This document shows, one piece after another, positions 41,850-42,562 of a stretch of DNA of 64,000 nucleotides. This DNA comes from Nocardioides aquaticus. GTDB taxonomy: Bacteria > Actinomycetota > Actinomycetes > Propionibacteriales > Nocardioidaceae. The notes below the pieces were generated by a model. That model made no database searches, was not told the DNA's origin, and saw only the letters and a list, made by a program, of their open reading frames with translations. The stretch's first letter is position 1; every line of letters starts with the position of its first letter. Where the stretch lies: positions 3,844,001 to 3,908,000 of the forward strand of contig NZ_CP075371.1 in assembly GCF_018459925.1 (NCBI RefSeq), read 5' to 3'. Made by a program: the position numbers and the translations under genes.

Positions 41850-42562
41850 TCAGCCGGTCACGGCCATCGTGCCGAAGCCGCTGCGGTGGAAGACCAGCGG
41901 CGAGCCGGAGTCGTCGTGGGCGGCGTGCTCGACGACGTGCAGGCGCAGCAGCACGATGGTGTGGTCGCCCGCGACCACCTCGCGGTGCAGCGAGCACTCG
42001 AAGCGGGCGAGCGCGTCGCCGATCGTGACGGCACCGTCCTCCCCCTCGACCACGCTCACGCCGTCGAAGCGCTGGTCGACCGGCCCGGCGAGCCGGCGGC
42101 AGGCCAGGTCGTGGTGGTCGGCGAGCACGCTCACCCCGAGACGGCCCGCGCGGCGGAGGTCGGGCCAGGTCTTGGAGGTGTTGGCGATGGAGAACGAGAC
42201 TTGGAGAAGTGGCCGGCGCCGGGCCGGGGACCGGCGTGGACGAAGCCCGAGTCGCCCTCGGGACGCAGGGCGTCGAACGCCGGCTGCACCAGCGCCACGT
42301 CCTCGACCGAGCCGCCGCACATCAGGGCGTACCCGTTCTCCAGGCCCCAGACCCCGCCGGACAGGGGCGGCTCCAGGCTGACCGAGGTGAAGGAGCTCGC
42401 CGCGAGGCCGACGTAGCGGCCGTCGACCGATGCGGCCACCGCGACGACGCCGCTGGGGAAGATCCCGAACGCCTCGCGGAGCCGGGTGGGGTCGAGGTCC
42501 TGGTTGGTGGGTAGCCCGGTCAGCGGGCGGGGCAGGGCGTCGGAGGGGGGTCGGGTGCTCAT
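41850..42562 (-). pseudogene. Flavin reductase-like gene broken by an insert
   Basis: The N-terminal part reads [20 protein letters not shown], then [16 protein letters not shown]. The family's next segment, [20 protein letters not shown], is found 161 bases later in another frame and continues to a natural end with SLHREVVAGDHTIVLLRLHV and PLVFHRSGFG. The 161 bases at 42201-42361 are foreign (see that entry). Since 161 is not a multiple of three, the frame breaks and translation would end at 42131. Without the insert the gene would encode about 183 residues of an FMN reductase of the HpaC/flavin reductase-like type, a fitting partner for the SsuD-like monooxygenase. ATG 42562 overlaps the upstream gene by four bases. 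Confidence 0.85.
42201..42361 (-). other. 161-bp fragment of a 6-phosphogluconate dehydrogenase gene inside the flavin reductase
   Basis: In the frame of the flavin reductase N-terminus the insert reads [17 protein letters not shown], continues [19 protein letters not shown] and ends GAGHFSK. This is the well conserved middle of actinobacterial 6-phosphogluconate dehydrogenase (SGGVWGL...GYALMVGG...GPVGAGHFxKMVHNGIEY). The fragment is cut on both sides within that gene. At the flavin reductase side CTG and GTC abut without loss, and there is no target-site duplication beyond one or two bases. The HAGP-GAGHF segment carries one extra residue (PRP). Confidence 0.8.

Follow-up and report, generated by a model that had tools for sequence, protein, structure and literature searches.

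Bacterial end joining is known, to our knowledge, mainly from induced breaks. A route akin to replicative template switching is the short-patch double illegitimate recombination of Acinetobacter baylyi, in which single-stranded DNA serves as the patch; like the locus described here, it involves a short patch from within the genome at an ectopic position, but it replaces target bases and has longer overlaps and shorter patches, whereas our case is a pure insertion.

The best comparison comes from Streptomyces ambofaciens, where I-SceI breaks at a central site yielded three repaired clones with inserts of the organism's own DNA (42, 83, and 30 bases), among five insertion events in all that ranged from 30 bases to 18.8 kb (PMC5869714). 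According to the portions of that study used here, mutagenic repair was recovered in 82 of 7,420 wild-type colonies, in one clone without kuA, and in none without ligC/D; captured inserts were a minority outcome, and the repaired loci had lost at least 191 bases in a screen that selected for marker loss (PMC5869714). In Rhizobium etli, end joining left deletions of 1–6 bases in 32 of 34 cases, and the sections of the paper drawn on here report no captured DNA; since almost only small deletions arose, capture is not the usual outcome of end joining (PMC10932983).

Here, we describe a 161-base copy of part of gnd, which encodes 6-phosphogluconate dehydrogenase, inside a flavin reductase gene of Nocardioides aquaticus (GCF_018459925.1). 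As in S. ambofaciens (PMC5869714), the host is an actinobacterium with Ku and ATP-dependent ligases, and a short piece of its own chromosome lies at a joint with short overlaps; unlike the induced events described there, with their deletions at the locus, this one is natural, 161 bases long, free of deletion, and placed mid-gene. It also resembles eukaryotic filler DNA and templated insertions, as far as our source covers them, in that DNA from elsewhere fills a break without target duplication, though there the enzymes are eukaryotic (PMC2567098). Among the titles and opening lines of abstracts listed by a literature search, we recognised no natural bacterial capture case, which is no proof of absence.

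The insert and its borders

The sequence examined, which we call the window, is a stretch of 64,000 bases (NZ_CP075371.1:3844001-3908000) of a genome that consists of one contig, C1, of 4,580,814 bases (C1 3844001-3908000). Positions without a prefix are those of the window.

The flavin reductase gene starts at 42562 on the minus strand. Its first 67 codons (42362-42562, minus strand), which end in SVSLEPPL, match positions 2-36 of the PF01613 profile and align through to their final residue in all 53 relatives. The remaining 116 codons and the stop (41850-42200, minus strand) match profile positions 37-151 and, because 161 is not a multiple of three, follow in a different frame from the first 67. 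The insert (42201-42361, minus strand), a copy of an internal gnd piece, separates codons 67 and 68. The result is a new 143-aa ORF (42131-42562, minus strand), in which the 67 reductase residues are followed by the gnd piece, with its 53 full codons, and a frame-shifted tail; in a Pfam search this ORF also matched PF03446, the NAD-binding domain of 6-phosphogluconate dehydrogenase, at the start of the insert. The function of the flavin reductase is probably lost.

The borders can be fixed because relatives have kept the site uninterrupted. The closest of the named relatives, Nocardioides sp. AX2bis, joins the base matching 42362 directly to the base matching 42200, and several other relatives (e.g., G018) join at the same point, so the insert comprises exactly 161 bases. 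The identity with gnd runs slightly further (42200-42363), since two bases at the joint toward the 5' end of the gene (42362-42363, minus strand) and one at the joint toward its 3' end (42200, minus strand) are common to donor and target; comparison of the junctions leaves the origin of these three bases, donor or target, ambiguous. No target base was deleted or duplicated, and inspection of both joints revealed no element ends, terminal repeats, transposase, or vector sequence.

A sequence-only reading of this DNA had proposed a 161-base gnd piece at these positions, a reductase that reads normally to SVSLEPPL and resumes exactly 161 bases later, and clean junctions without target duplication or element ends, all of which the comparison with AX2bis and the other relatives and the inspection of the joints bear out to the base. 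It had also presented the insert as two separate translated stretches, which is wrong: the insert is a single unbroken gnd frame of 53 full codons and one completed by a shared base, with GFVHAG...GAGHFSK as part of it.

Donor gene, empty site, and age

A search of the genome with the insert stretch identified C1:3628-3791 as an identical copy (164 of 164 bases), a match far beyond chance. The gnd ORF at this site, near base 3,700, is intact and scores above the cut-offs of NF007161 and TIGR00872 (as a piece with a guessed start). Together with the PF03446 match, this substantiates the earlier assignment of the insert to 6-phosphogluconate dehydrogenase, and the search for an intact gnd in the same genome, which had been suggested with it, thus found its target. 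The donor gene is flanked by ORFs that we read by eye as dnaN and recF, a gene order that points to a nearby replication origin; the donor site is therefore presumed to lie beside it. By eye, P0014, a gnd protein very close to that of this genome, changes frame close to the right-hand limit of the captured piece, which may reflect a sequencing error in a run rich in GC.

The three other matches found for the insert stretch in the genome span 39–74 bases at 74–88% identity. With just two full-length copies, the donor and the insert, we rejected a dispersed repeat; an insertion sequence or transposon was likewise rejected, as the insert is internal gnd coding sequence and has no target duplication.

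Between the window and AX2bis, 58,058 bases are collinear at 92.8% identity; at the insert, the gap measures 161 bases against 0, and the AX2bis reductase gene is contiguous. A genome scan provided 53 loci (AX2bis at 90% identity, the others at no more than 71%; the scan may omit records of the window's own genome), and in all 53 the 67- and 116-codon parts meet without an intervening residue. Of 215 genomes from the genus, just 1, namely this one, matched the patterns for the two junctions (32 and 30 bases, up to 3 mismatches allowed). We therefore rejected the idea that flavin reductases naturally contain this segment, which the sequence-only reading had named among the observations that would count against an insertion: it is present in 0 of the 53 homologues. 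Among the genomes examined, the insert is found in this one alone.

The insert is identical to the gnd of its own genome (161 of 161 bases) and differs from the AX2bis gnd at 12 positions (149 of 161), so the donor was the gnd of its own lineage and the insertion happened recently. Assuming that both copies diverge at the pace observed between the two genomes, an age above about a quarter of the AX2bis split is unlikely (3/12, a rough bound). The event is probably both real and recent.

Possible origins of the insert

The sequence-only reading had allowed for an assembly chimera. We consider it improbable that the insert arose as a chimera of assembly or library and is absent from the organism. 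Speaking for an artefact, a single consensus supplied every letter of both joints; the primase-polymerase gene beside Ku, in another part of the genome, has a frame break that may be a sequence error; and no other record showed the second joint when the second ORF was used for a protein search (among the best 120 of 1759 matches). Against it stands a 79-aa protein from a protein collection (P0001; 2,051-base contig, 3 members), which consists of the 67 reductase residues followed by 12 from the gnd part and equals the start of the 143-aa ORF residue for residue. As its record is not that of the 4.58-Mb contig, the first joint has been assembled more than once, possibly from the same isolate or library. 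The protein search also returned P0002 (183 aa; 1,035-base contig, 9 members), an uninterrupted reductase that differs by one residue from each of the two parts in the window, so a near-identical intact allele exists. Both reductase parts are whole, nothing is lost or duplicated at the joint, and the genome is a single contig. The junction in P0001 and the intact P0002 speak against misassembly without excluding it, and the earlier caveat stands in weakened form.

In our judgement, the probable explanation, though well short of certain, is that end joining captured a chromosomal fragment at a double-strand break. A break would have severed the flavin reductase gene at the boundary of codons 67 and 68; a short stretch of the organism's own gnd, derived from a sister chromosome, a degraded copy, or the DNA of a lysed sibling, would have been at hand; and machinery of the Ku/LigD type would have joined this piece into the break with little or no trimming of ends. 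Such a process would yield what is seen, a 161-base duplicate with overlaps of two bases and one base and without deletion or target duplication. In support, the insert copies DNA of the same genome, the ancestral site is empty, the joints are blunt or have short overlaps, and Ku and LigD-type enzymes are present. Ku (PF02735) lies at C1:3708396-3708899, next to genes for an ATP-dependent ligase and a primase-polymerase of the LigD type; the search that found Ku also matched 1 of 14 control genomes, that of Bacillus subtilis. The filler-type capture during break repair that the sequence-only reading had proposed therefore remains the best explanation, as the end-joining genes are present and the repair of induced breaks in S. 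ambofaciens leads to products of this kind (PMC5869714), and we infer that a physical fragment was captured rather than a sequence copied in place.

Several points weigh against this explanation. What is visible is a presumed scar and not the repair of a break; the repaired loci of Streptomyces also lost DNA, which this one did not (PMC5869714); and the primase-polymerase beside Ku (L102, C1:3706550-3707313) appears frame-broken, though two other copies exist. It matches the family profile as two segments that lie in different frames (positions 2-206 and then 204-244), with the apparent break near the end of the domain, and represents either a pseudogene or a sequence error. One of the three primase-polymerases in the genome exceeds the TIGR02778 cut-off. 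The window itself holds a LigD-type primase-polymerase (34826-35887; PF21686 above cut-off) and a further ATP-dependent ligase (32602-33933), which lie 6–10 kb from the insert and away from Ku.

Replicative template switching is the rival that deserves most attention, although we think it unlikely. In this case, a stalled 3' end would anneal to gnd through two bases, copy 161 bases, and return to the next base of its original template. Neither a double-strand break nor Ku is needed, and a duplication with an intact donor, exact continuity of the target, and overlaps of two bases and one base would all result. However, such overlaps are short for a switch driven by annealing. When 20,000 pairs were drawn at random, with donors taken from the contig's first 12 kb and targets from the window, overlaps summing to at least 3 bases arose in 8.4% of draws; the overlaps are no more than chance and therefore favour neither joining nor template switching, and they are no evidence for annealing. 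The return to exactly the next base would be a coincidence, and some 0.7 Mb would separate donor and target on a circular contig, which we presume this one to be. Short-patch double illegitimate recombination, as generally defined, was set aside, as no target base was lost and overlaps of this size come up in 8.4% of random draws. Two further routes are very improbable. A piece of cDNA from gnd mRNA could have been made by one of two retron-type reverse transcriptases encoded in the genome (L091, C1:1469576-1470202; L092, C1:3991402-3992148) and joined into a break, but retron enzymes normally copy their own RNA, and the piece is internal to gnd without the mark of an RNA end, which leaves it indistinguishable from captured DNA. 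(L092 and the next gene best fit the type III-A model of PADLOC.) Transfer of the piece from another strain, through transformation or a phage, has near-identical proteins in other records (P0002 and P0014) in its favour; the full identity with the genome's own gnd, set against 12 differences from that of AX2bis, and junctions free of vector or element sequence speak against it, while a donor of the same strain would look just like the genome's own gnd.

Other copies, gene neighbourhood, and significance

With 72 kb of the genome used as long queries against the rest, no second capture event was seen among the 40 candidates scored per search. The first 12 kb of the contig, which include gnd, gave one out-of-place exact copy of more than 100 bases, the insert itself (among 40 candidates scored), and we rejected the notion of a hot donor region; its other matches of more than 100 bases, at 67–75% identity, look like paralogues. 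Three 20-kb queries covering window positions 4001-64000 (60 of the 64 kb) yielded no further exact copy above 100 bases, again among the 40 candidates scored per search. The other strong matches of the window were short dispersed repeats, a DUF222 element (79–91% identity), and paralogue-like stretches (66–70%).

Eight more gaps separate the window from AX2bis (501/49, 73/12, 1310/6, 15/1935, 38/2052, 14/83, 1929/19, and 1868/2651 bases, window first), in a list that leaves aside matches below 100 bases or distant from the diagonal, as well as gaps internal to aligned blocks. Seven of them fall in the searched 60 kb, with no other exact copy of more than 100 bases; the 501-base gap (1273-1773) is in the first 4 kb, outside the queried 4001-64000. 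The short dispersed repeats, of about 50–90 bases and on both strands, include 34746-34824, with 13 other places, and the related 11872-11966 and 12857-12947, with more than 30 others, among the matches listed. The DUF222 element (1.5 kb, 45794-47326) has seven other long copies at 79–91% identity, and short pieces of its end occur at many other places; at its position, AX2bis carries unaligned DNA of a different length.

The flavin reductase stands at the end of a set of genes on the minus strand. Adjacent upstream is the intact ORF of an SsuE-like NADPH-dependent FMN reductase (42559-43164; PF03358 above cut-off, SsuE model 73 bits with a cut-off of 164), followed by a luciferase-like monooxygenase that resembles alkanesulfonate monooxygenases (43083-44294; PF00296, NF001939 448 bits with a cut-off of 510) and an SfnB-type sulfur acquisition oxidoreductase (44308-45537; TIGR04022 481 bits with a cut-off of 431). 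These neighbours point to the use of organosulfur compounds as a sulfur source. The FMN reductase, still intact, may cover the loss of the flavin reductase and so make this loss tolerable.

In itself, the finding concerns one broken gene in one strain, and it is a natural member of a kind of event known from induced breaks. A wider reading, which we put forward as speculation that is more probably wrong than right by a good distance, holds that actinobacteria with Ku repeatedly mutate in nature by capturing pieces of their own chromosome through end joining, with a preference for DNA near the origin and with scars that could be counted across genomes; one captured event is in hand, and the preference for origin-near donors is proposed because such DNA is the most abundant in growing cells. 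If this were true, exact and deletion-free scars would be a countable record of natural break repair in bacteria. A roughly dated, base-exact scar with an identified intact donor and a relative with an empty site offers a model for tallying similar events in many genomes, and such tallies could ask whether they follow Ku/LigD, the stage of replication, or distance from the origin.
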